Shown: positions 15,424-43,700 of the stretch, one piece after another | Numbering within the stretch: the first letter of the stretch is position 1 | How the letters are laid out: every line of letters begins with the position of its first letter | Position numbers and translations under genes: made by a program | DNA from: Agelas oroides | Taxonomy: Eukaryota > Porifera > Demospongiae > Agelasida > Agelasidae | NCBI GenBank assembly: GCA_949130485.1 | Contig: OX422183.1 | Coordinates: 4,766,136 to 4,830,135 of the forward strand | DNA: 64,000 nucleotides | Direction of reading: 5' to 3' | Notes under the pieces: generated by a model | Told to the model about the DNA's origin: nothing | Databases searched by the model: none | The model's input: only the letters and a program-made list of their open reading frames with translations

Positions 15424-16089
15424 ATTACACATGCACATGTACACGCCCACAAGCACACACATACAAAGTGATGGGTAAGCCACCTACAGGTTATGGCTTC
15501 CCACTGGTGCTTTAATGTGAATCTGCCTGTCACAGGTGGGGGGGGGGGGGGGTGGCTACAAATGTATGACTTCCCACAAATTGTTAAAAAAAAGGTGTTT
15601 AACCCTTATGAAGTAAACACATGTCAAGTGAAGAGAAACTGGAAAAAAGATACACCAAGTAATCCACTTTGATCTACTCAGAAAATATAAACTGAGGTTT
15701 GCTAGCTTGCTTGAATTTACCTACTTTTAGAGATACCATAGTCTCACAAAAAAGGGCCCATGGACAGTATACATTACTTTGTGCTCAGACAAGGGGCGGG
15801 GCGGATATTTGTAACATTGCTGCATTTTGCCACGCCCATGTTTATATTATCGCAACCTTCAACAGGATATTGCACAGCAACACACCCAGTACAAGCTTAA
15901 TTCAATTTAGTGTCTGTATCTCTCAAGTATGTGTGGCTTCACATAAGTGGACAATGTGTTATTAGCACAAAATGTATACTGCTGATTTAGCTACCTTTGC
16001 AAGCAGTACAGCACAGTGCTGCAACCACAGTTACTTAATTGGGGCGAACGCAGCGAGCCCCACACTTGTGGTGAAAACGGAAAATTGTC

Positions 16090-16120
<31 letters not shown>

Positions 16121-19100
16121 GTATATATATATAGACAACAATATATGTAGGTATGTTTGGTACGTGTGTATTCCGTATATGCGTTCTGCCCTATTTGTGC
16201 GCGATGCAATACTTCCGCATTGCACATTGGGTTCATGTAATACTGCTTGCTCAAGAGACAGGACTAGAAAGGCTGAACAGTGGGAGTCAACGCAACAGGG
16301 ATTTGAAAACAGTGAGGAAAGGGCGGCACTACTAGCGAGACCGAGACTGATTATTGACGGCGTGCTTCGTGACTCTGCCACAAGCGGGGAGTGCTCAGTG
16401 TACAGAGCGATCAGCTTGTGAGAATTCGAATCACAGAGGCCTGCGTGACTCGATCAAATATGAGCAACAGCTAGAGAAGAGCTTGTGGAACTCCATACGA
16501 CAACTCCAGTAATTGTGCTCAGGAAATGAGCTGACAATATAGACTACATCAAAAAAGACCTGGCTCCATACTCCATAGCTGAGAGAATCCTGATTCCACA
16601 GCTCTATGGGCTCAGCAAATATCCACTATATAGACATGCACTTGAGGAGACAGTGCCGAAGTGTGGAGTCACAGGAAACCAAATATTATGGAATATACTT
16701 GTTCGTACTAAGCTGTTGAACCCTCACCCTTGACTTGCAACTCTTCAGGCCAATTGCTTGGAGACTAAATTTGTTGCCTACAGCTGTAGCTACTACCCCA
16801 CTGTAACGACACAGAGTGTGTACACCAGACCAGAGAACGAGTCGTCTCCAGCAAATGAGCTTTGCGCAACAGATGAGACTGACCCATGAGACTCCGGATC
16901 AGAGAGAGGCCCGTCTCGAGCAAATGAGCATTGAGCAACAGTAATGACACAGAGTGTGTACAACGAACCCAAGATGAGCCCATACCCAAGTTATAATTAT
17001 TGTTCCTTTGAACACTGACATACATTTGATACCCTAGCCTCTTCCCCAGGCATTTTCTGCCTCCAGTTTTACAGGCTACAGTTGGTGGGAAAGACCTGGG
17101 AATGAGACTATTGTTATGTGAGACCATAGATAATAGAGACATCTCTATTACCTATGGTGAGATGTATGCAAGTGGGAAAAGGTAGTGCTATGAAACGCTA
17201 ATGCACCATGCAACTCCCTCACGCTCGCCCCACAATGCACTGCATTTCCCTAGTATAATGTTAGTTTAGCTTTGTGAAGTACTTCACACATCAGTGCTTA
17301 AGTGGGTGCCTAATTGAATTTGTATGCACTACTGGGGCTTTGAGGTTTTGGCTGCAAGCTACTCACGCTGCGAATGTAGTAGCTATACTAGAAAATGTAG
17401 AACATTGTGGGGACGAGCCTGAGCAAGCAGCTAAGATACACATGAATAGATTAAGCTTCACACTGAAACAATGAGCTGAATTGGTAGCGTTTATGAGTGT
17501 CGTTTATGCACGACCCTTACCTGAAGTGATCTCAACCTAGCATGCAGCTGCCGTTGATGGTCGGTCCGTAGCTGCTGTGACAAACAAGAAGTAAGGTGCC
17601 GTGCGTGCTTAAACTTGAGCTGTCTCCGCTACGGTTGCCAATGCTGCACTCTGGGTAGTAGCCCAGCATTGCCATGCCATGCCCTTCACCTATTGAGGCT
17701 AACTACTAAGTGCATGAGGACGTTCAATTTTCGGGAAATATTTAAATGCGCAATTAAAATTTACGGTATATGGCCACAAGCAAGCACGTACGTACGTACA
17801 GTTGTATACACACACATCTGCGCAATGCGGTCCCACTAGTGTTGGGCTCGCTCAGGCTCACCCCAACAAAATATCAAGAGTCTGCTGGTACTTTTTGGAG
17901 AGGAACAACACAATTACATGCAAAGTTACAGACAAGCGGCAGCGTTCTAACATTCCAGGAGAAGGACTCGAAGTTCCATGCATCTTTAATTTTACTGGCA
18001 AACCTAGTCATATAGAAAAGCTAATCAGAATTTTTCAGAAGCTGCCACAGTGACTTTTAGATATTGTAATAGTACCTATATCACATCATTTTCTGTGTAA
18101 CTATAGCATTTGAAAACTTTTCGCACAAGGTCAATTGGGTGGGCGCTTTTTGGAGTAAACTTTAGACCTTTGTAGGAAGTTGAAGCAATAATGGGGGGTG
18201 GGCGGATATTTGATACTAGGCCCTTTTTTGCAGGACTACAGTATAGGCAAGAACAATTTCAGCGAACTGTTGGGAAGAAGCTAGACGAAGCATTACATAT
18301 ATAACTAGCTAAAACCTCCAACAAACATAGATATGCAAAACAGCTTTGAGGTTAGAAGGTAACTACTGGAAATGATTATTAAATCCTATGTACGTAGATA
18401 AGGTTAAGATGAACAGCGGACACATCTGCTCACATGTTGAAATAATCAACAATGCAACGTAAAATTCATGCTGGACTACTTATACACGGGGAGTGGCCCA
18501 CCACTATCCACAGCTAGTGTGGGTCAGGAAATTAAAGGGGCCAAAACCCACAGCTAGGAAACCTACATAGCCTGATATCATTGTAGTGGAAGTCCCCTGA
18601 TGACGAGGACACTAACTGAAACATTTTTGCTATGTCATGATTCTTACTTACATGTATCATAACTGGACTCTCACTATATTGTTCATCACTGCGTAATATG
18701 GAGAACGGATGATATGACTATGTGAGGAGAACACTCAGACATTATCAAGAAAGAAATGTGTGGGCATTTTTGGTCTGACACCTGTGAGAGAACAGATGAG
18801 TATTAGTACTGCACGATATTGAAATTTTGCATATCAATTATTGTGGACTCCATAGTAACAATATATTGATATATTGGTTCCCAGAGTACGGTGACACGAC
18901 CTTACCGAGACGACAAACAGCTAGTCCCAGGTAGAAATCGACCGTTGTGTATTTCGACCACGTTAAGTGCTGTAGCGCAAAACTTCAAGAGCAGGGCTCA
19001 TACACGCTACATAGACTTATCAGGTATTCATGCATCTTCGCTGCCCATATGAGCCCCGCTCTTAATGGAAGTTTTGCGCTACAGCGCTTCGAACGCGGTA

Positions 19101-20379
19101 ACATGGTCGAATTGTGCAACGGTCAATTTCCACCCGATCGGAGAAATGCGCATGCGCATCTCAATAATCGCTATATAGCGATATATTGATACGCTAGCGA
19201 GCCGTATTGATATAGGTATTGAGTAAGTAGCTAGACCAATATATTGGAATATCGTATTATTGTGCCAGCACTAATGAGTACCCTACTTAACCCTTATTTT
19301 GATTTTCTCTTATCCGCCAAACACACACACACACACACACACAGGTATTACCGAGGAACACATGGGGTTATTATAGTGTATGATGTCACAAATGGAGAAA
19401 GTTTTGTGAATGTTAAGAGGTGGTTGCAGGAGATTGACCAAAACTGTGACAATGTTGCCAGAATTCTAGGTAAGTCAGGTGCATGGTTTAATGTACAGGA
19501 GGGAAGGGCCGGGGGTAGTAGGATTGTTGTCGAGGAAAGGATGTGATGAGAAAAGGAGGTTTACGTGCAAGGGTAGGATATGTAAAGGAAAGGATATGGG
19601 AGGGGAATCAGTAAGGTGGGGGGAAAAAGGAAGAGATCTGAATAGATTTCAGTTTGTGTACATCAAAGAGTTCATTGGCTGCCAAAATGGTATTCATGTA
19701 GAGTGGTTTACAATTACTAAAGGAAAGGATAGTACTCAGTAGCTGTGAGTTTTTAGAACTATTACTACTGGGTGTCCTTACACATACAAACATCACCCCT
19801 CACCTATTTCCATATACCCCCTGTCCCTCACACACATCCTCACCCCTCCTGCACCTCAGTGGGAAACAGGAACAATTGTCCAGAGAAAAAGGTAGTCCAG
19901 ACTGAAGATGCTCATAAGTTTGCAGACCAGATTGGCATAGAGTTGTACGAAACCAGTGCAGAGGAAAACATCAATGTCAAAGAGGTGAGAGTGCATACAA
20001 TGACATGTCATGAAAATTTGCGTGCATGTCAAGAGTGTGCACTCCTGGTAATACCCATATTTGGAAATTGGAAGTAAAATGTTTTTCAACTCATCACTGA
20101 CTTCTATTTCACGCCTTCTCTTCCCTAATTTCTCTCTCCCACCCTCTCCTCCACTTCCTTTAATTTCCATTTTCTTCCCACCCTCTCGCTTCTTGTTCAT
20201 CATCTTTCTTCCCACTCGCTCTTCCTTTTTCCTTTTGCTTCCTTCTTTCGCTTTCTCATCTTCACTCCCTCCCTCCCTAGGCATTTTATGCAATCACACG
20301 GCTTGTCCTGCAAAGAAAGAGAGAGAGCATAAAAGAGTCAGAGACAAGGGGAGGTATGATTAAGCCAAAAAAAGAATAA
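9726..20379 (+). CDS. RAB35-like: Rab35-like small GTPase with degenerate nucleotide motifs
   Basis: Six exons: 9726..9777, 11362..11412, 14821..14944, 19345..19469, 19860..19984, 20281..20379; 576 nt, 191 residues, all junctions in phase with GT-AG sites. An in-frame TAA at 9720 precedes the ATG. The order of motifs and residue numbers match human Rab35: start [18 protein letters not shown], switch I ITTIGVDF (T40), DTAGQE (Q67), [24 protein letters not shown]. Rab35 normally cycles on plasma membrane and endosomes. Here four key places differ: P-loop GVGKV (Val22 where Ser/Thr binds Mg), NRNN at 120-123 instead of NKxD, SAE instead of SAK at 150-152, and a C-terminus ending MIKPKKE without the usual prenylated cysteines. 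It may be a pseudo-GTPase or a decaying paralog; identity of the family is secure, activity is not. A cryptic donor in the last exon could give another C-terminus. Confidence 0.88.
9818..11178 (+). repeat. Direct repeat of about 22 bp bounding an inserted block in Rab35-like intron 1
   Basis: GATGCGGGATGGCCAAAAAG occurs at about 9818 and again at about 11154, each followed by ATAA. Between them lie degenerate units of AAATAGGCATCCCG type (9870-10180), the LINE tail and a second block with related GGGATGCCCATATTTACG sequence (11070-11100). The repeated ends suggest a duplication that accompanied insertion or a segmental copy. Confidence 0.5.
10187..10626 (+). mobile_element. 5'-truncated non-LTR retrotransposon (LINE) tail
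   Basis: The open frame 10187-10516 holds [27 protein letters not shown]: the CxxC...H....C motif found after the reverse transcriptase in several LINE clades. The frame ends at TAA 10514, followed by a short 3' region and an (ATTC)n tail at 10611-10626, typical of LINEs that end in a microsatellite instead of poly-A. The reverse transcriptase core is absent, so this is a dead 5'-truncated copy in intron 1 of the Rab35-like gene. Confidence 0.7.
12777..13340 (+). repeat. Repeat family R1, copy a
   Basis: Starts GCACCCCAAGATGCTCATAA and ends near CTTCCTCTGGCCTGTGAATTA. Nearly the same sequence recurs at 14086-14646 and in an inverted pair at 26230-27550. No open frame; probably a non-autonomous mobile element. 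Confidence 0.75.
13365..14056 (+). repeat. Repeat family R2, copy a, with inverted ends
   Basis: Left end GGGGGCGAGCCTGAGCAAGC, right end GCTCGCTCAGGCTCGCCCC, which are inverse complements. It sits exactly between the two R1 copies, flanked by similar AATTATATTA-type sequence. Further copies at 17385-17866 and 56083-56520. No transposase seen. Confidence 0.7.
14086..14646 (+). repeat. Repeat family R1, copy b
   Basis: Same start (TGCACCCCAAGATGCTCATA) and end as copy a with scattered substitutions and a small deletion near 14310. Confidence 0.75.
14679..14741 (+). mobile_element. Short fold-back element (TAGCCT family) with 9-bp target duplication
   Basis: 63 bp, begins TAGCCTCCTCCCCGGCTTTT and ends GGGAACAGGGCT. 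The arms pair around a short loop. GCTTCACTG lies directly before (14670-14678) and directly after (14742-14750), a perfect 9-bp duplication. Confidence 0.7.
15055..15554. repeat. Cluster of simple repeats: poly-C, (CA)n, poly-G
   Basis: Poly-C at 15057-15080, interrupted (CA)n from about 15282 to 15422, poly-G at 15539-15552. All lie in intron 3 of the Rab35-like gene. The long open frames read across the CA tract are low-complexity artefacts. Confidence 0.95.
16038..17240 (+). repeat. R2-like element, copy d (uncertain limits), with (TA)n
   Basis: Left GGGGCGAACGCAGCGAGCCCC, right CCCTCACGCTCGCCCCACAA, reminiscent of the R2 ends. Contains an AT-rich (TA)n tract at 16089-16134 and a coding-like plus frame (about 16180-16420) that I do not recognise. 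Confidence 0.4.
17035..17110 (+). mobile_element. Older TAGCCT fold-back element
   Basis: Begins TAGCCTCTTCCCCAGGCATT and ends CCTGGGAATGAGACTA. Flanking 9-mers (TTGATACCC, TTGTTATGT) agree only in part, as expected for an old copy. Confidence 0.45.
17385..17866 (+). repeat. Repeat family R2, copy b
   Basis: Starts with TACTAGAAAATGTAGAACAT and GGGGACGAGCCTGAGCAAGC; ends GCTCGCTCAGGCTCACCCC. Internal sequence such as GCGTTTATGAGTGTCGTTTA matches copies a and c. Confidence 0.7.
18931..19133 (+). mobile_element. Fold-back element in Rab35-like intron 3
   Basis: Arms of roughly 65-80 bp: left GTAGAAATCGACCGTTGTG... and AGTGCTGTAGCGCAAAACTT; right AAGTTTTGCGCTACAGCGCT and CAACGGTCAATTTCCAC. Related inner sequence (CACTACAGCGCTTCAAGTGT) occurs at 35759-35778. 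Confidence 0.7.
19321..19344 (+). promoter_or_regulatory. (CA)n directly at the 3' splice site of Rab35-like exon 4
   Basis: A pure CA run reaches the AG at 19343-19344 with no ordinary pyrimidine tract in the last 20 bases. Exon 4 nevertheless joins in frame (AC + G). Confidence 0.7.
20103..20280 (+). other. Very long polypyrimidine tract before the last Rab35-like exon
   Basis: About 175 bases, strongly C/T-rich, ending CCCTCCCTAG. It serves as the acceptor tract and is far longer than usual. The purine-rich complement creates a spurious lysine/glutamate-rich minus frame. Confidence 0.85.
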
Positions 20380-20380
20380 A
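20375..20380 (+). terminator. AATAAA overlapping the Rab35-like stop codon
   Basis: The stop TAA (20377-20379) lies inside AATAAA. A polyadenylation signal here would give a very short 3' UTR and supports the gene ending at this exon; not proven. Confidence 0.4.
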
Positions 20381-21289
20381 TAGCAGTCCATACACAAGTT
20401 GCCCAAATGCAGTAACCTAACGTGAGATAAAATAAGCAGCTTCAGTATTTACATGCACACAACACACTATAATTATATGGAATTCAAAGTTTGACTTGGT
20501 TTCTCTGAGAGCAAAATTGGATCATCCGCATTCTACATCGAGAGAAAAATTGACTAGGCACAGTCAGGATTTCCTTTATGTATTTCAAGCGAGCTAGTTA
20601 ACTGCATGCATGCATTTATATTTAATGTTACATTTGTGTCTTATTCCAAACATACGTACAATGAAAAGAAATAACTGTAACTTGCCATGAAGGACCAAGT
20701 GCATGCATGTCATTACACAGTGTGTGTTGTCTAATGGATAAGGTGTCAACCCCTGAATGTGGGTGTCATGGATTTGCAAGTCATTTATTTTGGGGCTATA
20801 CCACTATTGATGGCCTGGTTCAATAAGTGAAACACTAAATAGATTGGAGGTTGATTTAATCCGAAAATGTAGTCTCATGCAGTTGCAGTCTGGGTGTCCA
20901 CTTCCTTTTGCCATGGTTTAGGATCACATCCTTGTCCATTCAAGGATTCCAGCAAAACAAGAATTTGGTTGCAAATGAAATTCTTTATGTAATTGCATGC
21001 TTGTGCCAAAAAGTGAACTCTGGCTATATTCATGCACTATTGGATGACCTCTACAAATGTTCTTGTACCATGGTGCATGGGTGGATGAAAGATACCGCCT
21101 AAGTGTACAACTGTCATGTGCCCTGGGTTGTGGTTAATTTCATAAAATGATTTTTAAGAGAGCTCACCAGAAAAACAACAAATAGCTTGTTATTCGCTTT
21201 ACTTTGTTCATAGCGATGGCTAATGTTGCAGCACATAGTTTGCAAGCTCCAGTACAACGGTGATTTCCAACCGCTTACTAGGACGCAAG
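20380..21289. other. Intergenic, no gene seen
   Basis: AT-rich; no coding-like frame. A degenerate tRNA-like stretch (GTCTAATGGATAAGGTGTCA, 20730) was noted but has no matching T-arm. Confidence 0.5.
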
Positions 21290-23533: not shown

Positions 23534-26500
23534 GTAAGTATTGCTAAACCTGCTGTAAAAAAGCTGCATGTGATTTGCAATACAGAGCCATGATAATAGT
23601 GGATCAAAAAACAAACACACACGCCACTAACAACTCCAGGACTTGATCATCCCAGCACAAAATGCAGAAACCCTCTTGTAAGGGTTACCTAAAATAGAGA
23701 AACAAAGCAACGTCAGTATCACACAACTACTGAATAACCCTGATATCACCTGCCAACCAACATTTACATCAACTCAGACCAGCCGTAACTGCCCATACCC
23801 CCGCCCCTCCCACTTCTCTCCCCCTTTCTTTACTCTCACACTCCCCTTTCTATTCCTTCCTCCTCCCCTTCCTCTCTCCCTCCTCCCCTTCCTCTCTCCC
23901 TCCTCCCTTCCCCCTTCTCTTTTACCCTCTTCCCAGGGATAGGTTATTGACTCTATTTCCAGAAACCTACCACTGTAGCTATGTGACGCCCACACATTAT
24001 CATATCAAGAAAACAACAGAAAAAAGTTGAAATAACATCACAATGCCTTTACACCATCCCTGCATCTTGTGCCATTTCACCAACTATGCACCATCCTATT
24101 TTCATATGGTAAACTCCACCACACTCAACAATCTAACAACATAGCTCAGCTTTTATGACTCAGTACTGCTCACTCCAGAGCCTTTCACAAACCATATCTG
24201 CCATGCTCAGCAGCAATAACATTCACAGCAAAGCCCACTCTCTATGCACATTGCATTGTTGACAAAATATCACAAGATGTAGGGATGGTGTTGTGCTGTC
24301 ATTCCCATCTTGTTTCGTTTCCCCTAGGTTATCCCTGCATGTGCTTGTTTTCATTAGGTGTAATTATGTTACATAGATCCTACGTCTTGTATTTTATGGT
24401 GTGTACACAGGATCAGGTGGACGAAGACCAGTAACAGCTCGACAACAGAGTAAGAAGTTAGACATAACTACACATGGCAAACCAGTGCAAAATGAAGCTG
24501 TAATTCAACATCCAAGTGATATTCCAATGTTTCGCATGTTAGCACAAAATCGTGGTGAGCATCAGCCCAAACTGCAACTAAAAACAAACGTTATGAGAAT
24601 GTATCCTAACCCTCTCTCACTACCAAAGTCTACCAGAAAGTTTTATCCAATGAACTCTCAGAAACATGGTGTTGCCCTCATCATCAACAACAAGAAGCTT
24701 TCTGAAGATAGCACCTATGAGATGGCAGATTGTGATGAACTAAACCTCGCTGAAACGCTAAAGTTTCTGGGGTACCATGTTCTAAAAAGGCAGACATGTA
24801 ACCATGATGTAATGGTGAATATCTTTGAACAGATTGACAGATTAGATCCAGTCATGAAATCAGGTGGTATCGATTCCTTTATCTGCTGCATCCTCTCACG
24901 TGGTGATGAAGAGATGGTGTATGGGGCAGACAACAAGCCAATGGAATTGAGAAGGATACAGGAAATGGTTAGAAATTGCAAACTCTTCAAGAAGTTGCCA
25001 AAACTGTTTTTTATCCAAGCATACTTGGGAAAACAGTTAGATCCAACAAAATATCTTTCTCCATCAAGACACAGTGATTTCTATTTCAGCTGTGCTGTTA
25101 CCTCAAGTGAGCAGCCTTTTCGTGATCCTAAAAAGGGGTCATCTTATATCACAGAGCTGTGTAAGGCTCTTTGCACACACAGCACAGACATGGTCTTGAG
25201 TGACATTCTAAAAAATGTGGGCACCATTTTGAAAGCTAAACTTAGCAGTCACAATCAACTGCTGAAAGAAGATAACCAACTGAAGAAAGCAGTATACTTT
25301 TTTCATGGTAAGGCTTATATTTTATTTGTGAAAACTGCTAATGAATAATGTCTGTACCTACACTACGCCTATGAGTAATGCATTTTTAGTGGCTCCTCGA
25401 ATAAGGTGGTAGGCTTATTTTCAAATGTATTCACTCAAAAGTACATTCGCCCTTGGGCATCAGCCTACATACCGTATGCATAAATTTTCTAGTCATTATA
25501 GCTGTACATATGCAACAACTCTGCAATGCGAGATTTATGTATATAGCCTACTGTAGCTGCTAGGCATGTATCTATGTTAAGTATGGTTTTTGATTTTGGA
25601 ATCAAATTATGTAGACCCCAAGCTACGTATGTGGTCTCTTTTATTCTTCAGGTGCTGATGCATCATCTCTCAGTAGTATAGGACATCACCTCAGTGGCAA
25701 GGAGCTTCTTGCCCTTCCAGATATACTGCAGGAGCATGTGATAGACAGTTTGAAAAAGATTGGGTTGGATCTAAAGGCAATTGGAGATACACAAACAACT
25801 ATTGAAGAAGTGCAGAGTCTGCTACATTCATTAGAGCAACATGAAGTTGCATCCAGTCTGAGGCAACGCCTTGACTCAGGTAAGCATTTAACTCTTTAAC
25901 CGAGTGTACTTGTCATGCAAATTTGGCTGCATGTTATCAGTTGGCACAATCTGTTTCAAAGATATGTTTTCCTAGCAAAATGGGCAGGATATAGGGGGAA
26001 GTGGGCAGGCATAGTCACAAAGTAGTGTGCACTTGGTGGGTGTCTTGGCTGGGATAGAAAGGCCTTGGTTGACACTGGCCTGCCCATTTCCTTTTTAGCA
26101 CAAAATGGCACAGAAACCACTCCTGCGCATATTCAATTTTATATCATCCCTACCTTTGTTTGCATTCTTTTTTGGCATGCCATCCTTACAAATTTTAACA
26201 TTTCTAATGACCTTGTTACTGTACCGAGCCACACCCCAAGATGCTAAGAAGAGGTTAGTGCTGCAGGTTCACCTTGGCTTGAACACTTGAGTTCAGTGTT
26301 TCATAGGTAAAAGCTTTGTTCGTAGGCTTTAGTTCACTGCTACTTAGCCAAATAGCACGAGAGCGATCGTCCAAATTAACTTAGTTCATAAGGCTTCTCA
26401 AGGGAGACAGCAGTTTATCAATCATGAATGGAAATGCTCGCCTTCAACAGTTTTATACCAGCAAGATACATGTGTATTACCGTAATTCGCTCTTTCCTCT

Positions 26501-29500
26501 TTGTAAAAACAAAGAAAACGTACAAATTTAACAACGAAAATTTTTCCGCGTTGGTTGGCTCCCTGCTACACACAAGCACTTACCCAATTGCTGTTGCCCA
26601 TAAATCCTTGTATACGTGGTAGCATCTAACACAACAAGCCATCTCTTATCTATCTATCTATCTATCTATCTATCTCTTTGGCACGCAGTGCGATCTCCTT
26701 AGTTAATGCCCACCACACGCGACTTGTAAATTATTTTCGTTCAATTTGGTCTGTGCGAAAATTATTTTACGTGAATATTTTTTGGACAAAAAATTTACTA
26801 GACGAAAGAAAGCAAATTGCGGTATTAGTCCAAAATACAGTAGTGCACTCAATACACAATAATGATTTCATACGTAGTATATTGAACGCATGATGTCATG
26901 TAAGCATGAAAATCCCTTCTGGTGCTGCTGTGAGGGGTGAGGGTAGTGTAGCTGGTGAAGGGAAGCTTGTTGGTGTACCAAAGTTTCATTCCTGGGGTAC
27001 GTGCACGATGCCATAATGAATATCCAGTCAGATTGGTTGTCCAACGCTTCCTCTGGCCAATGGGATGGTGCAGTTTTCCCAGGAATGAAATTTTAGTACA
27101 CCAACAAGCTTCTCTTCACTAGCCACACAACCCTCACTCCTAACAGCTGCACCAGAAGGGATTTCAACGCTTATGTGACGTCACGCATTCAATATAAAAT
27201 TATTGCTACGTGTAATGAGAATGTTTCAGGCTAATAATACGCATGTAACGCATGGATATAAAGCAGGTGAAGGCATGCCTTGCTGTTCACGATTGATAAA
27301 CTGATGTCTGCTTGAAGGTAAAGTTTGTTTTATGAAGCCACAAAACTCTGAACTCTATGGCCTTCTACGTACTTCACGTAAATTTGCAGCACAAAACTCT
27401 AACTAAAGTCTTGTAGCTAAGTAGCAGTGAACTTTGTTTTGCTAAAGCCTACTAACAAAGCATTTACCTACGTAGCACTGAACTATTAAAGTGTTTGAGC
27501 CAAGGTAAACCTTCGGCACTAACCTCTTACAAGCACCTTGGGGTGTGGTTAGGCTCGTTACATTGCATGAATCTTATAATGTGCATCTTGGGGTGTAATT
27601 TTGGATGTTAATCTCAAACCTAAACCTAGGAAGATATCTTTCAACTGTAACCACAGCCCCAGAACTTGACACTTTAGTGGTGGTTCCAAGCATGTAACAA
27701 TTTTGTGTAACATTGCCATCTGACGACTGCTCACTTATTGCTACATTTGAATGGAAAGGGGCCGTGCCAGCTGTCAACTTACGATTTCGTGTGTGCACTA
27801 GTCTCACTCCCAGACCAATGACCATGGTCTTTGGTCTGGGATTGCGACTACACGTGTTTCCATGTGTACAAAATAGAAGATTGAGTCCTACACAACCAAC
27901 AGTAGCTGGGCAGTGCTGTGAGCAGTTTTATTGACGAGGGTCAATTTGAAGCTATGAAGACGCTGAGTGGTCATAGAGCTCCGCACTGTGATTAGCATTA
28001 CATTTTTTTTTGGCTAAAATCACGGTGAATACTTGAACTGTTTTCGAAATGTTGAGAAGTCAAAATATAATTACGTTTTGTTGTCTTGGTTCACCGCAAC
28101 AAATGTTCTGCTTCATATCAATTGTTACATTTTCCTTTTCTACCACAGCTCTAGAAAACCAGTCACATTATGCAGCCTATCAACAGGCATTAAAGGAAGG
28201 AGTTGCGATATCATTGAAGTATCTTAAAGTCCTTTTTTTTGGTCCTCCACGAACAGGGAAAACATCTATGAGACGTCGCCTGGTTGGAGAGATTCAGAAC
28301 CTTTCAAATGAACCTGTTCAAGCAAGCACTGGCACAGCAGAAGTCTATGATGTCATTGTCAAGCTAGTTGAAGACAAGATTACCACTTCAACAACTGTAG
28401 TCACGAAGTCCAAGTGGTCAACTGTACAAGCTGTGCTTGGCAAAGAAAAGTGCCCTCATGAGACAGACGTGGATGAAGAATTGCGGATTCTCTACCAGAT
28501 TATTAATGGAGTTGTTCTTACCACTAAAAAAAGATCTCCCGTTCCTGATCCAGTTGATGAGAAAGAAACCCAGGATAAAGCTGCCAAACAGCAACGTCCA
28601 GCTAGAGTGAAAAAAGATAGTATTTTAAGTCCTATCCTTAGGCTAGTTAAATCTTCCAAAGCAGTTAAAATTAATCCCAAACCCTCTGTTCTTCCGGAAG
28701 ACTCATCAGTTGAAGAGCCAGGGTATGGACTAAGTGCCAAAGAATTTGAAGAAATTGAAAAGGCTTTTGCAGCTTTCAGAAAGGTACTGCATGAACCTGG
28801 ACAGGGAGAACTTAAATTATTGCTGGATGGAACTATACTTATGAACATGGTTGACACAGGTGGTCAGCCAGCATTCCTTGAGATGCTTCCAGCCTTGACA
28901 GTTGGCCCAGCACTCTATCTCATCTTCTTCAGGCTCAACCAAAACCTAAAACAGAGATACCAGATACAGTATGTCAGTGAAGACAATGAAAATGTACAAT
29001 TAGATGATTCTTCATACACTGTTGAAGAAGTCATCTTTCAAGCCCTATCAAGCATAGCGTGCTTCAGCTGCACTGCACCCAAGAAAGCCAACATACCTAA
29101 TCCATCTCACGCTGCTATGCTTATGGGTACACACAAGGATCTGCTTGGAAGTGATCCAGAAACTGAAATTAAAGCTAAAGATGGTGAACTTCGAGAAAAC
29201 TTAAGAGATATTCTGGAAACTGAAAGTTTCCTGCGTTATTCATCTCATGATCAACTCATATTTGCAATTGATAACATGACAGGAGATGAAGGAGAGCTGA
29301 CAGAAGTTCGCCAACGCCTAGAGGATATAATCAAGCAGGAGTTTGACGAATTCCACATTCCAGCTTCTTGGCTTATGTTCAACATCTTCCTTCGTAAGAT
29401 GGGTAACCGCACCTTGAGTTTGTTCCAATGTCGCGAGATTGGAGATAGACTGGAAGTAAAAAATACAGATGAAGTACTGTGGTTCCTCCACCACTGTGTT

Positions 29501-32500
29501 GGAACCCTGATGCACTTTCCTGATGTAGAGGAGATCAAGGACGTTGTGATCTGTGATCCTCAAATTGTCTTTGACAGTGTTACAGATATGATTTTGAATA
29601 GCTTCAAGCTTAAGCGGGTAAACAAGACAGCTTGTGACAAGTTTAAAGAAACTGGCCAGTTCTGCTTTAAGGACATTCAGAAGATTGCAAAGAACTCAAA
29701 AAGTGACATCCTCCCCCTGCCGAAACTTATCAAGCTCCTTGAATACCTTAACATCATTGCACCTATCAAACCTGAAGGCCCTTCATGTTCTGGTTTCTCA
29801 ACTACTAGTGGCCTACCACTCATCCCTAGAATTAGCCTACAATCAGATGCCTACCAAGAGCTAATGTACTTCATGCCTGCTGTACTCAAACATGCCAAAG
29901 AAGAAGAGCTACACATGGAACTAAAACCCACAGCTCTAGTCCCCCTCATGACTCACTTTAAGTGTGGCTTCGTACCTGTTGGTGTGTTCTGTGCCATGAT
30001 AGCCAGTCTTGTTGGTCAAAAGGATACCCTTGGCTGGATTCTTCAGGAACCATGTAAACATCAAAGTGGTCCTATTTTGCGCAAGAACAAAGCCACATTT
30101 CGAGTAAATGGTACCTATGATGTCACCCTGATTTCAAAGCCTAAATGGTATGAAATGCACATTGCTTGCATCTCAACTGCAGACAGGGCTGCATTGGTAG
30201 GGATCTGCAGCCATGTTGTAGAAACTGTCTGTGACACTCTTGACCAAGTAATCTCAAAGATGAGGTACAAACAGTATCTTATATCTTCTCCTTCTGATCA
30301 AACACTCTATGAGCTAGGTTTCAAATGCCCAAAACATCCAAATGATAATCACCTGGTCATTAATCGACCAATGAGTGGAGTACAAGCTCCATCACATTCT
30401 GCCAAGTTTCTCTGGTTAAACTACCTACAAAAAAAGTCAATAATGATTTGTCCTCTTGAAGGAGGGAAGGCCATTGATTTCACAGAGGCAAGCTTGCCTC
30501 AGTCTTTTGCTCAACAGAGTCTTGTCTGGTTTGGAAAAGTAAGTCAGTTGTGATATATTTGGCCAGTTATGATACTGTAATTTTGTGTGTGCGTGTTAAA
30601 ACAATCTGCTACAAATTGACATTGTCAATATTTGTGAGAAGTAGTCCAACCCTTATAGCCACGTAAGTACTTATGCAAGAAGTCCAAACTTCACGAAAAG
30701 TTGTGCACAATGCTGGCTTTGCAGGGTGAGAGCTGTCGGTGTGTCTAACTTTGTGCAGATGCGGACTCCAGATAGAACGCATAGATAAAAATTGCATAAA
30801 CAAGTTGTAAGGCCGGATTTTACATCATTTTCTCAATCACATACAACTTTAGCACTACCATACTTGTTTATGCACTTGTCTTACTATACTATTGCAGGCT
30901 CCAAAAATCTCTCCTGTGCTACCTGACTCACTACTTGGTAAGTACACCTGCCACTGCATGCTCATAGTCAATATTAATCACACTGTATTTTGTTGCAGAT
31001 GATCCTCAGTTGCCAAAGATAACGATTTCTCACCTACAACTGATCAGATATTGTCATCATGCCAGTAACAAGCAGGCTTTAAGGCTACTTCAGTGTCTTG
31101 CCCCAAAGTGGAGAAAAGTGGGGGAGATTCTAGGCCTTAATAGAGCTGTGATTCAAGCTATTGAAAATCCTGGATCAGGAAGGGATCCTGAGGATTGCAT
31201 TCGTCAAGTGTTTGTGAAGTGGCTTGACAATGCCCCCCAATTGCCCAATTATTGCCAGTACCCCTTGACTTGGAGGGGGCTTCACAACCTTCTGCTAGAT
31301 TCAGATAATGGTGAAGCAGCTGTTGAGCTAAAGATTGCTCTTTCAAGTCAGTTCAGCACTGTGCGAGGCACTTATGAAGCTACAAGTAAGTGTAAGTGAA
31401 TGACACATGAAGCTTGAATGTGTTTGATAGCAGCCATAAAAAGTTGCCTTTCTGCATATTTGTGGATGTATTACTAATCTATAGTGTTTGCTCACAGATA
31501 CAGCTGCTGGGTGCACTGATCAACTTCATTCTACTGTGGCAGAAGGCATTTCTCACTTGAAACTGTCTGATGCATTGCAGGCTACAGAAAAAAGCCCACA
31601 AAATGGTAATAATGAACTTCTCTACTTTGTTGAGTGCCTATTATTGATCTGTCACTTATTATCTATGCAGCTACTCAGTCACAAGGACAAACCAGCCAAC
31701 CTCATTCCACTACTATTACTGAAGGTGCAACCACTCCTGAAATGCCACCAATTTTCAAGCGAAAAAGTAAAGTAAAATGTTACTAATCATGCAAAGTGTT
31801 TATTATAACGTGCTGTCTCTAGGGTGCATGCTTTTGGAGTTCCATAAAAGTGCACTGTGGTTTGTATGGTTTCTGTGTTAGCTCTACCTATGATCTTAAC
31901 ATGCATAATTTCTTGCTGATTATACAAAGACTAATGCTTTCTTCCTAGGCACATCTACTATTACTATAACCAGCCAACCTCACCATCTGTCATTTATTAT
32001 CTACATAGCTACTCCATCACAAAGGCAAACCAGCTCCACTACTATTACTGGAGGTGATACCACTCATGAAATGCCACCAATTTTCAACCAAAAAAGTAAA
32101 GTGAAATGTTACTAATCATGCAAAGATTAAGTGCTTATTTTAATGTGAGTGCTGCCCCTTTTTGTATAACTAACATCACAGGTAAAGCTAACACATAAAT
32201 GATATAAACTACAGTTCACTTTCTATGGAACTCATGCACTATATGGGCTCTATGCATCATAGGAACCGTATGGTGCATGAGTTCCATGAGTTCCGTGGAA
32301 AGCAGTTTATATGGTTTATATGTTAGCTCTACCTGTGATCTTAACATGCATGATTTCTTGCCCACTATACAAAGACTAATGCTTTCTTCTTAGGCACATC
32401 TACTGATGTGACTTCCCAGACGACTGTATTACATGAACAAACTGACTGGCCTTGTGCTACCAGTACTGCAGAGGTTCAAGAACTCCAACCCTCTGAAACT

Positions 32501-33221
32501 CAACCCTCGGAAACAGTTCCTGTTGTGGCAAGAAAACAAAGTAAATACTGGAATTAGGTTGAGGGTATACAGAACAGCATATGATAGAACATTTCTTGAT
32601 TTTATGCAGTTGGAAACATTCACCCAGAATTCCATCAGTCCATGTCATTTGGCGGGTTCACTGACTTGCTGAAACAAAGAGGAGTTATGGAAAAAGATAT
32701 TGACTTGTTAACAAGTAAGTGACATGCATGTGTAATTATTATGGCTTAAGTGTAGAAGTAGCAACTGTTACAGTGATATTTCACAGTCCATGGATTATTC
32801 CTCTTCACGCATTTTCACTTGCATGTCAGCTGTCAAAATGCAGTATCTCAAAACTTCAGCAAGGGGGGAGTTTAGTACATTCAGTGTTGTTTATTGTACT
32901 TATTAGTATCGGTACTTTTAGTTAACTACCAATTTTGGGTGACTTCAATGGTATAAGACAGCATTAATAAAAAAAGCACTATAATTATGACAATTGTGCA
33001 ACTATGCATCACAGCTGTTTGAGCAAACAGGTATTTTCATGCTTCACAGAGAAGAGAGTGTATGTTAAGCTGGATGTTCTATATCTTGCTGTCTCTCTGT
33101 TGCAGGGGAGTCAATCAATGCTAAAGCATTTTGTATGTTGGGAGAGGAAGAACTTATGGAACTTGGTGTGTCCTTTGGAGGAAGGATGATTCTCAGAAAG
33201 TTGATGAAAGAGTTGAAATGA
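23512..33221 (+). CDS. Pseudocaspase / Roc-COR GTPase / Death / SAM fusion protein
   Basis: Exons: 23512..23533 (tentative first coding exon, in-frame stop upstream at 23491), 24411..25307, 25652..25879, 28149..30538, 30898..30937, 30999..31385, 31498..31605, 31671..31766, 31949..32095, 32394..32540, 32610..32714, 33106..33221; all phases agree, 1560 residues. Domains: caspase-like fold about 90-305 (GVALIINNKK, DSFICCILSRG, KLFFIQAYLG, KKGSSYITELC); P-loop GPPRTGKT at 414-421, DTGGQ at 618, THKD at 710-713, then a COR-like region (ICDPQIVFDSV); Death domain about 1193-1300; Ser/Thr-rich linker; SAM about 1500-1560. The catalytic His is Arg171 and the catalytic Cys is Tyr212, so protease activity is not expected. 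Roc-COR proteins are dimeric GTP-dependent switches; Death and SAM bind partners. Likely a signalling scaffold; exact role unknown. Confidence 0.85.
23765..23940 (-). repeat. Polypyrimidine/polypurine tract
   Basis: C/T-rich on plus with a partly tandem CTCCTCCCCTTCCTCTCTCC unit. The Arg/Gly/Glu-rich minus frame over it is an artefact. Confidence 0.85.
26230..27550. repeat. R1 inverted pair in the pseudocaspase gene intron
   Basis: Plus copy from ACACCCCAAGATGCTAAGAA (26231) to about 27060, then a reversed copy to AGCACCTTGGGGTGTGG (27534-27550). The centre (ATTCCTGGGG ... CCCAGGAATG) is palindromic. A (TATC)n run sits at 26647-26676. The intron (25880-28148) could form a long hairpin. Confidence 0.7.
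27574..27825 (-). other. Open minus frame of unknown nature
   Basis: An 83-codon frame with mixed, protein-like composition (VIGLGVRLVHTRN, CYMLGTTTKVSSSGAVVTVE) antisense inside an intron. No family recognised; may be a relic exon or chance. Confidence 0.2.
31645..32110 (+). repeat. Tandem duplication of a linker exon with its intron edges
   Basis: The exon 31671-31766 (CAACCACTCCTGAAATGCCA) and its flanks (TTATTATCTATGCAG; GTTACTAATCATGCAAAG) recur at 31985-32120 (TTATTATCTACATAG; same 3' flank). Both copies are phase 1-1, so the duplication keeps the frame and lengthens the Ser/Thr/Pro linker between Death and SAM. A further start block GGCACATCTACT occurs at 31948 and 32393. Confidence 0.8.
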
Positions 33222-37729: not shown

Positions 37730-40700
37730 GTAATGTTGTGTTAGGAGGCCCAAAGCTAAGGTAACAAAGTAGGCTTTTCAGCATAGGCATGGGAAGATTT
37801 GAGGGGATGCATTGCTGATCCCTGAACATGCAGAAAATGGGAGGATCTGGGTGACTGCCCACCCTTTGGGAAAATTTATGAGGTGTTTCCAGAGCTGGTT
37901 TTGGGCTGAGGGGATGCCCCTCCAGAAAAGCTTTAAAATTTTTGAGATCACACCTTTATTGGCAAGCAGGGATATACAGTCATGGAGATAGAGCTACTAC
38001 TAGTGATAGCAGATTCTGTGTTACTCTTTAACTTTATAATAGCTGCATCAGTGTTCTCGCCAGAATTTACAGGCCAAAAGGCACAAATAGTGTCTCATGA
38101 CCACGCCCCTCATCTTGCACTGCAAAAACAAAGTTGTTATTTTAGCTAAGTATTTGGTTACTACAGTTGCGTGACTATCCTTACTATAAAATTTTATGAA
38201 TGCAGTGCTGGAAAAGATTCATGCAGTGGGAGCTGATGCTTGAGTAAACTTTAATAGCCTCCCACAAAATGTTTTACAAGCACTACATTCTTTGAATTAG
38301 CGTAGGAAGGATAGTCATGCAATTGTAGTAACGAAATAATTTGCTAAAACAGCAAATTTGTTTTTACAGTGTGAATGTAGTGACTGTCAGTACCAAACAC
38401 TTGTTGCATGTGTACCATTGTCAACTAAGTGTTTTGGTTAAGTTCAGTGTTCACTGAGCTCTATATTAGGAGTGCAGATAGTTTTTAAGTTCAGGTAGTT
38501 CAAGTGGCCAATAAAAATATGTTGGTTTTAGGGTCGAGCCGAAGGGCACATTGTTGATTTTGGGCACATGCAATGCCCTTTTGGAAAAGGCCTACACTGC
38601 AAAAACAAGTTAGTTGTTTTAACCTCAGAGTGGTTACCATGGTTGCAGACAAGCTGAAGAGACAGTGGTTATGATAGGTTTGCTTAGGTATGGAAGACTA
38701 TTTGCATAAGGCAACTCAATAGGCAGCTGCCCAGTTCATCTTACAACCACAACACCCTGACAACCCTCAGAACATCTGTGAAGGAGTCATTACAAATGCA
38801 CTTCAAAGTTGCAGTAAGGAACTTTCATGTAACCAGATGAGGGAATCATGGATGTTATGAGGGTTTTCAGTGTATTGTGGTTGTAAGATGAACTGGGAAG
38901 CTGTCCCTTGGGTTGCCTTATTCAATTACTCTTCAATACCAAAGTAAAGCTCTCATAACCACTGTTTCTTCAGTTTGTCTGAAACCAGGGTAACCACTCC
39001 ATGGTTAAAACAACCAACTTGTTTTTGCAGTGTAGCGAGAACCCTGAGCTGCATGTACGTGTTGTGGCCATGCATCTTCATTGTAGTGACGGAATGGCCA
39101 TTTAGTGAACAACAGGCCATGTTGGTCATATAGATGGTGTTGACAGCCTTCTGACTATATCTGAAAGATGTTCTTACTGGTTGACTTGTGGAGTTCACAG
39201 CAATACTTACTCTGCATGCAGCATGGGGGATAATATTGAAGGGAAAAAGAGGGGAAGGGGGAGGGGGTCACATGTCCCAGTGCCCCCCCCCCCCCCCCAT
39301 CCCCAGTTCCTACACTTATGTTTTTGTGTTTTTCTTTCCAAATCAAGAGAGAGATACTAGGCTGTCTATTTGTATATAATTATGTATACTCCTTGCACAC
39401 ATAGAACCAAGCCTGAAAGCAATGCTCAATGAACTTCATCCAGTCCGTGCCAGCTGGTACAAGATTGGACTGCAATTAGACATCCCACATGCTACACTGG
39501 ACTGCTTCAAGCAAAACTACTCAGATCAAACAGATTTAATGTGCGAAATGTTGAAGCATTGGTTAGATACAGCTGTTGATCCATCTCCTTCCTGGGAAGC
39601 AGTTGTCACTGCCTTGAGGTCACCGATAGTAAACAAGAAGATTATTGCTGAACTGCTTGAGTTAAAGTATTGTCCACAAATACAACAAGTAAAGGAGGAG
39701 CCCAGCAACCCTACCAAGGTGGAGAAGAGTGAAGGTCAGGCTACCCAACTGAAAGATCAAAGCAGGCCAACTCATGCTAGTTCTGCACCAGCTTCGGAAA
39801 ACCTTGCCACTAGTGCAGCAAGACACAGTAGCAGTACTAGTCCCCCTCCAAGTGATGGGTCTCAGAAGCCACCGTTTGGCTGTGGGTGTGGCAAGTGCAC
39901 ATTTTTCAGTTTCATAGAGAGGGGCTGTCCAACATCCATCCCCTCAGCAAGCTCCTTCCCCTATCTTAACCTCAGTGGAATCACCCATGAACAGCAGCAG
40001 GAACTCAGGGGAAGGCTGAGGTTTGAGTCTCGAGAGATAATGATGCGGTTTCAGGAGCTTGTGTCTGCAACAATCAAGTCCCTGGTCAGACAGAATGTAC
40101 AACTAGATGAGTTAGTGTCTCATGTTATGACTTTGGGAGCATTTGACCCAGTGTTCAAGGAGCCACAACTGCCACTATTTCAATACTGCTTCAAAGAGTT
40201 GAAAACTGCAGACACTATTCCCAAAATATTCCTGGTCCTCAAAGACTACTTCTCCTTCTTCAACTATGACATCATTGAACACATCATCAAGGTGCTTGGC
40301 GCAGAGGAAGACAAAGCTAATTTGCAAAGTTACAAGAGTACATTCAATCGATATGCAAAACGAAGAATCTATGAGTGTGGACCACATTTTGGACCTGTAA
40401 GTGACACTGACCACACTGATGTGTTTGTCAAAGTGGACTCCCGGTATGACAACTACACTGTTGAAGAGATCAAGGGGTTATGTAACAAACTCAGTGAAAC
40501 TCTTTGTGTTTCATCAGAAGGTGCTTTGCGTCTATGTCGAGTAGAGAAGGGATGTCTTCAGCTCACATTCCAGGTGCCCTCATTTGTGCAGCAGAAGACA
40601 TTTCCACTGTCCAGAAATCAAGAGGGGACTCTGAAAGCTGAGGGTGTGATCAAGCTTACAAGTGGGGAGTACCAGTTCCCAGGTGATGAAGATTAATTGC

Positions 40701-43700
40701 ATGTGCTAAGAAACCTCACCTTGACATTGATGCTAGTGGTTAGTTGGTGCATGTGGCATTGTGGCTATACCTCTGTAAAATCTAATAAATGGGGATACCA
40801 GGGTATTCATTTTTATGTATAACCCTCCTACAGTTGAAGTAGAGGTTTATGAACCAGTGCAGAAGAAACCGCAGATTGATACTGACACAGAATCAGATGG
40901 TGTGTGCTCGATATCTAACCTGTTAGTTAGCTACTAATGTGATGGTATATAATTCCTCAAATAGTACTGTGTCATTGTATAGTCATTCTTTCTATATTAC
41001 AGTTGAAAAATGTGATGTTGGTGAACCAGTGAGAAAGAAACCACGACTTGACACTGACAGAGACTCAGCCATGGGACTCAGTGTGTTTACAGGTGGAACG
41101 AGCAATACATTCTCGGAGGCAAGCCTCTTAAATTTCAAACTATGTATTTCAGATACTGTAATTATTCAAATACTACGTATGATTGAATTTAACGTAAGAA
41201 ATTCCATTTCAGGAATTTATCATGAATCTAATACTGCGTAAGCTGAAGTCTTTATTTATCTACACAAATCCAATTTAGCATAAGATAATGATTGAAGCCA
41301 ACCTCTAACCTTCGTGGCCTTCCTACCGGTCGTACTAACAGTCCTCATAGTTCGGCGAAGTCTGCACACAATTCCAGGAAAAAACCTATACACTTATCTT
41401 GGTGCAATGGTCGCAGAGTTCGACAAAGTATGTACACAAATTGACGAAAAGCCACTGTACACTTACCTAGGCAGCGCAGGACACTTGGTACTGCCTTCAC
41501 CGGTTAATACAAAGTTCATCGAGGTCTGTACACAATTCCAGGAAAAAGCAGCTATACACTTATCTAGCTACGCTTGGTTCAACCTTCATTGGTCGCAGAG
41601 TTCGACAAAGTATGTACACAATTCGACGAAAAGCCACTGTACACTTACCTAGGCAGCGCCTTCATCGGTTAATACAAAGTTCATCAAGGTCTGTACATAA
41701 TTCTAGGAAAAAAAAAACTATACACTTATAACGATTGCGAAAGCCCGTCTTGCACTTCCACCTATAACTTGTGTTTCTGTACACAATTCTAGGAAAAACC
41801 AGCTACCGTAATGAGTCTAATTATTCGACCAAAAAAATTATTTCCTTTCTGGCGTTCGAGGAATACATTAAACGATTTCTCCCGAAAAGGATGGGGGGGG
41901 GGTGTTCGAACAATTAGAGGAAGTGTTCGATAATTAGATCTATAATATCACAGTTAACACAAACACACTATATACATTACTAGTTACTATAACTAGGCCA
42001 GTCCATAGACTGTCAAAGGCTAGTAGACGTTCGGCAACCCCCGTTCGAGCTCCGCAAAGACTGTCGAAGGTTTGTAGACGTTCTCTAACCCCCGTTTGAG
42101 CTCCGCAGAGCAGTCGAAGGGTAGGACACCTTGGCAACCCGCATTCGAGCTCCGTAGAGACAGTCGAAAGCTAGTACATGCATGTTTGGCAACCGCCGTT
42201 CGAGCTCCGCAGTGACAGTATGAGTCTAGTAGATCATTTGGAAATGACTGTAGGAGTCTAGTAGATGTTCGAAGACGACTCTAGTATGCTAGAAGAAGTT
42301 CGGTAACCCTCGCTCTAGCTCTGCAGAGACTGTCGAAGGCTAGTAGACATTCGGCAAACTCCGTTGGAGTTCTGCAAAGACTGTCTAAGTCTTGTAGACA
42401 ATTGGCGACCCCCGATCGAGCTCCGCAAGGTGTAGGTGTTCGGATATTTGAATAAAAATTTCAAACGTGGGTGTTCGAAAGCTTGGAATACATTTTTCCT
42501 GGAAAAGAGGGGGGGTGTTCGAATAATTGGATGGTTCGAATAATTAGACTCATTACGGTATACACTTACTTAGCTTACCAGAGCAGGCCTTCGCGTTTTC
42601 ACATATTGTGATTCTGCATGCATGCACACAATTCTAGGAAAAACCAGCCATACACTTACCTAGCTTACGAGAGCAGGCCTTCGCGTTTTCACGTATTGTG
42701 ATTCTTATGCAATGTAAGATCTAATTTTACGTAAGAAATTCGATTTCAGGAGTTTATGATGAATCCAATCTAACATAAGGTCACAACGTAATTATTCTTA
42801 AGCTTGCGTAGTATTCAAATAATTACAGCATCCCTACTTTGTATTTATGTGGCTACCCTTTTTCTTGTATATGTAGGATCCCCTTGACAAGGAGCTGGAG
42901 GAGCTTGATTATGAGCTCAAAGTGCAGGGCCTTACAGAAGCATCATCTTTCCACAAATCTGGAGGAGGGTTAGAACTCCATCAGGCAGCAGCAGTGGGAC
43001 AGTTGGAGCATGTCAGATTTCTTGTTGAGAAGAAACATTACAGCCCAATGCAGAGAGATCAGAGTGGCATTACTGCACTGCACATGGCAATACTTAAAGG
43101 AAGTATGCAAGTATTGAAGTATTTTATCACGGAGAGCAACTGCAACCCAGCATATCCTGGTCCCCTTGGTTTAACACCCCTTCATTTAGCTAGTCAACTA
43201 GGCCATCTGGATATGGTAAAGTATCTGGTTACAGAACAGCAGATTGATCCAATGTGTATAGATGTAAATGGAAACACACCATTGCATAGAGCTTGTGCAG
43301 GTGGTTGTCAGGAAGTTGTTGAGTTTCTGACTTCAGAACACAAGAAATATATCCACATTGCAGAATTTGTGGGTGATCTCAAGAACAAATGGAACAGTAC
43401 ACCTCTTCACAGTGCAGCAGCAAATGGTCACTTGTGCATAATCCAATTCTTCATTACTGATCAGAACTGTGACCCAAATCTTCCAGGTCAGTATGGTAGA
43501 ACTCCTCTTCACTATGCTGCTGAGCTTGGTCATCTGCACATAGTGAAGTATTTGACGAATGAGCAAGGCTGTAATCCATCATGTTTGGATGAACAAAAGG
43601 AAACTCCACTTCACTGTGCTGCCATGAAAGGGCACATGGATATTGTGAAGTTCCTTACTGTAGAGAAACAATGTGATCCAAAGTGTAGAGAAAATGAGCA

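Follow-up and report, generated by a model that had tools for sequence, protein, structure and literature searches.

What would a caspase fold that can no longer cut be doing at the front of a GTPase protein? The question is raised by a locus of the sponge Agelas oroides (assembly GCA_949130485.1), examined here within a stretch of 64,000 nucleotides (the window) spanning positions 4,766,136 to 4,830,135 of contig OX422183.1 (C1 below, so that the window is C1:4766136-4830135). Inspection of the letters alone had led to a preliminary description of a caspase-like domain devoid of catalytic residues and fused to Roc-COR, Death and SAM domains at window positions 24411-33221, with a GTP-gated regulatory scaffold as the proposed meaning. 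The present analysis, for which the whole assembly (259 Mb) was searched, confirms part of that observation and supports part of its interpretation. The best reading, to which we assign a probability of about 0.55, is that a Roc-COR scaffold carries a non-proteolytic arm of caspase fold, which would bind and tune an active caspase.

The caspase domain and the gene around it

The caspase domain lies in the first exon recovered, exon A (24411..25307, + strand), behind an N-terminal linker, with its Pfam stretch at 24668-25240. It matches Peptidase_C14 at 86.3 bits (E 3.3e-24; cut-off 21.4), and a phmmer search of the PDB retrieved 142 distinct sequences at E ≤ 0.01 with caspase-3 as the best match (9.5e-18), which bears out the caspase fold blocks first recognized by eye. 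Four close paralogs of the exon were located, all on C1 within 260 kb: C1:4982622 (p4982), matching exon A at 84%, C1:5049511 at 82%, and C1:4865714 (p4865) and C1:4949877 (p4949) at 76% each. In the window copy, the position of the catalytic His reads CGT (Arg; 24899..24901) and that of the catalytic Cys reads TAC (Tyr; 25022..25024), exactly the codons given in the preliminary description. The Tyr codon is the same in 5/5 copies and sits in the longest invariant run of the caspase domains (PKLFFIQAYLGKQLDP), 16 residues around the dead site, whereas Arg occurs only in the window copy and C1:5049511, the other three copies retaining CAT (His). Because Tyr is present in 5/5 copies and Arg in only 2/5, the nucleophilic Cys was probably lost first and the His later. 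In p4865 and p4949, the Gly that follows the His is replaced by Cys.

The P1 Arg residues of caspases have roles in the substrate pocket. The Arg of QACRG is gone and so, as we read the alignment, is the P1 Arg of the large subunit; the small-subunit P1 Arg (QPFRDP) is retained in 5/5 copies, so that the earlier remark on a missing P1-pocket Arg holds for the large subunit but not for the small one. The intersubunit linker is shorter in the alignment than in paralogs with a His-Cys dyad, and the final strand QLKKxVYFF, which in caspases forms the dimer face, is kept in 5/5 copies. Since the nucleophile is absent in every copy, the domain is predicted to be almost certainly unable to cut. Comparison of its structure with caspases, proposed in the preliminary description, did return caspases: Foldseek matched a single-sequence AlphaFold model to CED-3, caspase-8, and caspase-3 at a TM of about 0.5, with c-FLIPL at rank 20, but the model is of low confidence, with a mean pLDDT of only 38.8.

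Ten exons with consensus splice sites, all on the + strand between 24411 and 33221, join into one open frame of 1503 residues with a single terminal stop. Exon A is followed by exon B (25652..25879), a linker of 76 residues with no fold assigned, and by exon C (28149..30538), which holds a Roc-like GTPase and a COR region. A P-loop GPPRTGKT (28241..28264), a switch II motif DTGGQ about 200 residues further on (28853..28867), and a G4 motif THKD (29129..29140) were all read in exon C, in agreement with the in-frame GTPase motifs noted at the outset; a COR-A match follows at 29360..29773. After a linker exon of 40 bases (exon D, 30898..30937) come exon E (30999..31385), whose Death-like region is below the Pfam cut-off (Pfam stretch 31094-31231), and three linker exons, F (31498..31605), G (31671..31766), and H (32394..32540). 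A SAM-like region without a Pfam match begins in exon I (32610..32714) and ends in exon J (33106..33221), which also carries the stop codon. The interval first described as one in-frame unit does therefore yield one frame over ten exons, but its first base, 24411, is a splice acceptor and not a gene start.

Paralogs, constraint, and the Roc-COR family

Whether these exons form one gene can be judged from the paralogs. In 4/4 of them, exon B, the GTPase-COR exon, and the C-terminal exons follow exon A in the same order. Both ends could be mapped in 35/40 exon-by-paralog cells, all with AG and GT (a stop takes the place of the donor in exon J), and the mapped exon lengths are equal or differ by multiples of three. 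Of the five unmapped cells, three concern the 5′ boundary of exon A and two concern exon J, in copies where the fetched stretch ended; exon J of these two cut copies was detected by a protein search. Exons A-J are very probably a single gene, as predicted from the genomic sequence, and the earlier placement of the caspase-like exon in one gene with the GTPase region is well supported by five paralogous copies with matching exons and phases.

The dead caspase domain looks to be under constraint. Exon A has no stop codon in 5/5 copies, and its dN/dS (Nei-Gojobori) is 0.31-0.46 at a dS of 0.18-0.40 in 9/10 pairs, the tenth being the near-identical twins p4865 and p4949, which lie 84 kb apart, are identical in exon A, and differ at 3/2369 bases in exon C. 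In the same nine pairs, exon C gives 0.25-0.36; the short exons give noisy values, with two pairs above 1. The invariant run at the dead site adds mild support, as a run of at least 16 invariant residues appeared anywhere in 9% of column shuffles. The introns of the front part (25308-28148) tell a different story on either side of exon B: the window copy and p4982 share 58% identity in intron 1 and 98% in intron 2, and intron 2 of the window copy is 61% identical to that of C1:5049511. This contrast suggests that gene conversion or exchange took place downstream of the caspase part.

The Pfam Roc model scores the window copy at 16.7 bits, below its cut-off of 27, and the GTPase assignment therefore rests on the three motifs and the COR region that follows them. 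COR-A scores 27.2 bits in the window copy (E 4.1e-6; cut-off 35.3), 30.3-35.5 bits across the five copies in the genome scan, where 2/5 (35.5) exceed the cut-off, and 37-40 bits, above the cut-off, in five or more further exon C family members. By these matches, COR is supported at the level of the family. Of the Roc-COR unit named at first sight, the GTPase motifs and the family-level COR thus stand, but neither model reaches its cut-off in the window copy itself. A profile of the GTPase exon found no significant match in the PDB (best E 0.049, a leucine-rich-repeat protein), and a single-sequence AlphaFold model of the GTPase-COR region (pLDDT 37.2, almost all-helix) was set aside.

At E 1e-5, the GTPase exon matched at least 65 places (57 of 219 candidates scored, with some genes represented twice), and COR-A was found at 132 places genome-wide, 98 of them above the cut-off and many in runs on C20, C3, and C1. 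Judged from these matches, there is a very large Roc-COR expansion in this genome. Exon B precedes the GTPase exon in 3/7 relatives with upstream DNA fetched (C2:3455931, C6:7916062, and C2:3647144), and none of these three has a Peptidase_C14 (C14) place within 25 kb upstream. Given such exon B-GTPase relatives, an existing exon B-Roc-COR gene probably acquired the caspase exon at its front. No Pfam match was obtained for a frame upstream of the C7 relative, Death-like by eye, or for the second Death-like frame of the C2 stretch, and a scan of viral contigs found no relative.

The genome holds 32 C14 places: the 5 dead copies, 21 places (20 genes) read by eye, and 6 unread (three on C8, C5:3153583, C2:22753712, and C2:22771776). 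His and Cys are both retained in all 20 readable genes, some of which (C10, C19, C4, C22) are distant from caspases, and Cys→Tyr occurs in 0/20. A tree was built from 17 C14 sequences; it omits p4949, whose exon A is that of p4865, two C5 genes out of six, and the genes on C2, C10, C19, C4, and C22. In it, the dead copies group together as a single clade (support 100) that sits on a long branch. For the other 27 C14 places, the 25 kb downstream contain no COR-A place on the same strand, and the readable ones keep the dyad; as far as examined, Roc-COR fusion and Cys loss thus appear to coincide within this genome. The C14 place at C2:3445092, with COR-A 11.6 kb upstream of it, was not counted as a fusion; it sits 3′ of its GTPase and retains SGHG and DACRG.

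Several observations were made beside these families. In the stretch C2:3445092-3458303, a GTPase relative has a Death-like exon that scores 15.9 bits (below the cut-off), and an intact C14 frame lies some 11 kb to its 3′ side, an arrangement that could be the reverse order in one gene or two neighboring genes. At C3:12960653-12961309, a caspase frame retains His and Cys with one TGA between its two subunits. A RIG-I-like helicase frame at C1:8359152-8361449, with DEAD, Helicase_C, and RIG-I_C-RD above the Pfam cut-offs, ends about 0.7 kb before a GTPase-exon relative that starts at C1:8362161 on the same strand. A donor-like GTAAGA just before the helicase stop is, by eye, in the phase of the GTPase acceptor; four other RIG-I-like receptor frames (761-789 residues) argue that the helicase is a separate gene and not a second fusion. 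Upstream of exon B in the C6 relative lie Cys-rich frames named by eye as CXXC-zinc-finger-like, and a similar one occurs in the C2 stretch.

A proposed FLIP-like role and its alternatives

The product is envisaged as an intracellular signaling protein consisting, in order, of one or more N-terminal exons, the dead caspase, a linker, a Roc-like GTPase with COR, a Death-like region, a further linker, and a SAM-like region. The dead caspase domain would pair with an active caspase of the same cell and raise or block its activity, as FLIP(L) does with caspase-8; such pairing is proposed because the QLKKxVYFF strand at the dimer face is retained. The Roc-COR part would serve as a GTP-dependent switch that exposes or clusters the dead caspase arm, and recruitment of partners or oligomerization would fall to the Death-like and SAM-like ends. 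Pairing, GTP control, oligomerization, and the scaffold role are what we infer from this arrangement, and they differ in strength: FLIP-like regulation of a caspase partner, drawn by analogy, is an evenly balanced proposition, and control by GTP is more tentative. Candidate partners are the two tandem-DED caspase genes at C15:957-963 kb. These lie tail to tail (C15:957149-962882), each with two DED places and one caspase place in a caspase-8-like arrangement, and the second has QACRV instead of QACRG.

According to passages of PMC7586951, FLIP(L) is the only human pseudo-caspase, is inactive, and carries Arg and Tyr at the His and Cys positions; passages of the same paper and of PMC11121540 describe it as working by pairing with caspase-8. 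The cFLIP-type analogy of the preliminary description is hence closer than it had been put, as the Arg/Tyr pair of the window copy equals that reported for FLIP(L) in PMC7586951. The likeness consists of a caspase fold without activity, of His→Arg together with Cys→Tyr in the window copy and one paralog (Tyr alone in the other three), and of partner binding, which is presumed here. The difference is that FLIP is headed by tandem DEDs and lacks a fused GTPase, whereas the sponge gene has Roc-COR, Death-like, and SAM-like regions after the dead caspase. These features suggest an independently evolved counterpart of FLIP, that is, a pseudocaspase perhaps working like FLIP but not a member of the FLIP family; the separate origin is what we infer, the tree covering C14 sequences of this genome.

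Counterparts are also found outside vertebrates. Mosquitoes have a caspase-like decoy, reportedly CASPS18, on which we know of no fused switch. The title of Bryant et al. 2010, as cited in PMC3141678, and a passage of PMC3141678 present this decoy as an inactive paralog that enhances an active caspase. Caspase-X of the coral Acropora millepora, described in passages of PMC4715348, combines an active and an inactive caspase domain, was modeled like caspase-8 with c-FLIP, and resembles the sponge protein in coming from an invertebrate and having an inactive caspase domain, believed in the coral to modulate the active one. In the coral protein, both caspase domains share one polypeptide, whereas the inactive domain of the sponge gene adjoins a GTPase region and its chain, as read, showed no active caspase domain. 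Such non-vertebrate pseudocaspases were few in the parts of the literature consulted (the coral double caspase and the mosquito decoy). Heterodimer control is thought likeliest because FLIP(L) pairs with caspase-8 and the coral protein was modeled alike.

On the GTPase side, DAPK1 and MFHAS1-like proteins are Roco/AP-GTPase proteins with a Death domain, and the sponge gene shares with them the order of a putative Roc-type GTPase and COR followed by a Death-like region. It differs in the dead caspase in front, in the spacing of ~200 residues from P-loop to DTGGQ, and in that no kinase or leucine-rich repeats were seen in the ten exons. Passages of Kaur et al. 2021 (PMC8195603) treat AP-GTPases as switches in bacteria and metazoa and place caspase among the partner domains of expanded Amphimedon TRADD-N proteins, and the legend of a figure on NACHT/NLR architectures of Dysidea avara (PMC12909245) names CASc and COR. 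No description of a caspase-Roc-COR-Death-SAM chain was found in the titles, abstract openings, and passages of the open-access literature examined. Dead caspases and Roc-COR-Death proteins are already known; their combination is apparently undescribed in the literature so examined.

A number of results weigh against a caspase-tuning arm on a Roc-COR scaffold. The predicted N-terminus is incomplete: because an AG|GA acceptor before exon A is conserved in the same phase in 5/5 copies (read by eye), at least one exon lies upstream of 24411, and no such exon was found in a DNA search of 10.4 kb upstream, which was dominated by a high-copy repeat. At the other end, only one polyadenylation-like hexamer occurs within 1.1 kb past the stop, 0.8 kb away. 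The five copies are absent among the 133 matches listed by the genome-wide Roc search (150 of 307 candidates scored). Exon E scores 14.7-14.8 bits against Pfam Death (cut-off 22.6), and a profile of the five Death-like sequences reached PIDD and RIPK1 chains at no better than E 0.75 and 0.81, so that the Death domain of the preliminary description becomes a Death-like region below the cut-off. Its SAM domain fares similarly, as exons I-J match neither SAM nor any other Pfam family at E ≤ 0.1; the SAM-like label is a reading of the sequence by eye, and its one support is the conservation of that exon in eight C1 genes, each time within 5 kb downstream of a COR-A place. The structure predictions of the caspase domain and the GTPase-COR region both have a mean pLDDT below 40.

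Other results bear in the same direction on constraint and on the likeness to FLIP. Because the twins share one exon A sequence, the five copies count as four independent ones in that exon. In comparisons of the three closest copies, exon A shows a dN/dS of 0.38-0.46 as against 0.25 for exon C, and Death-like exon E gives 0.39-0.81, for which reason constraint on the protein may be partly relaxed; moreover, C1:4865714 has a stop codon in its GTPase exon, exon C. None of the 49 DED places detected in the genome by exon-by-exon search is on C1, so recruitment would differ from that of FLIP, although the upstream 5′ exons leave room for other adaptors. Lastly, the Arg/Tyr match with FLIP may be due to chance, because each substitution is one of two residue-changing transitions.

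Different explanations draw on the same evidence. Plant immune receptors carry integrated decoys, and by analogy the dead caspase could be bait for microbial factors that bind or cut caspases, with Roc-COR-Death-SAM as the alarm. This is unlikely, in our estimate. An exchangeable front module would be expected, and the GTPase exon does occur elsewhere without an upstream C14 place and with exon B before it in 3/7 relatives; the large expansion (132 COR-A places, 98 above the cut-off) and the contrast between introns 1 and 2 (58% and 98% identity of the window copy to p4982), suggestive of a separate history for the front part, are also in keeping with a decoy. However, the caspase exon as a whole bears no sign of positive selection (dN/dS 0.31-0.46), the site of inactivation is the longest invariant stretch of the domain, no recognized domain of another kind could be confirmed at the front of the relatives (the L043 frame matched no Pfam family), and no target is known. 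Distinctly unlikely is a relic, a formerly active caspase that lost its Cys and is carried in a Roc-COR gene without a present role. An open frame in 5/5 exon A copies with dN/dS below 0.5 at dS 0.18-0.40 speaks against it, as does, weakly, the 16-residue invariant run at the dead site (9% of column shuffles), even though a single dead clade (support 100) on a long branch, the probable order of Cys before His loss, the drift-like Gly→Cys change after the His in p4865/p4949, and the stop codon in one copy would all suit a decaying domain.

If instead the caspase-like exons ended separately and a Roc-COR gene started near exon C, the fusion would dissolve into two neighboring genes. Intron 2 is indeed long (2.3 kb in the window copy and 1.7 to 9.2 kb across copies, with 9.2 kb in two) and contains one ATTAAA, and the GTPase exon exists elsewhere without a caspase. 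Such a division is nonetheless very improbable: intron 1 contains no polyadenylation-like hexamer, the phases match, and the splice sites from the exon A donor to exon C are kept in five copies. Exon B, moreover, belongs to the Roc-COR gene, because it precedes the GTPase exon in relatives too, and exon A splices in frame into it. That Tyr or a neighboring Cys has taken over catalysis has a chance close to nil, with the nucleophile absent in 5/5 copies, the large-subunit P1 Arg lost, and the intersubunit linker shorter than in the dyad paralogs, against which can be set the retained small-subunit P1 Arg and the His kept in 3/5 copies.

The reading of a caspase-tuning arm on a Roc-COR scaffold can be extended to a broader and rather doubtful picture, in which an invertebrate lineage would have independently reached the FLIP solution with the same Arg/Tyr pair and wired it to a Roc-COR switch with death-fold ends. 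The front module would perhaps be exchangeable, and the dead caspase would be either an output arm tuning a caspase-8-like enzyme or an integrated decoy sensing microbial attack on caspases. If the caspase-tuning reading is true, the regulation of caspases by inactive partners would have been invented more than once, an early animal lineage included, and the gene would provide a single polypeptide in which GTP state and caspase dimerization can be tested together.

Flanking features of the window

Two long ankyrin-repeat frames, with 26 and 27 Ank stretches, flank the gene at 1025-4195 and 42877-45930, and a Death domain above the Pfam cut-off lies at 39380-40693. A small-GTPase match (Pfam Roc model) with one stop is found at 14823-14990. 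The high-copy repeat at ~16036-17255 is about 1.2 kb long and recurs at 93-99% identity in at least 30 places of at least 1 kb (39 of 8299 candidates scored). In the interval 19757-20916, a frame at 19757 is Rab-like by eye; the sequence 19836-20916 recurs immediately 5′ of paralog p4982, at no more than about 0.2 kb from its exon A.

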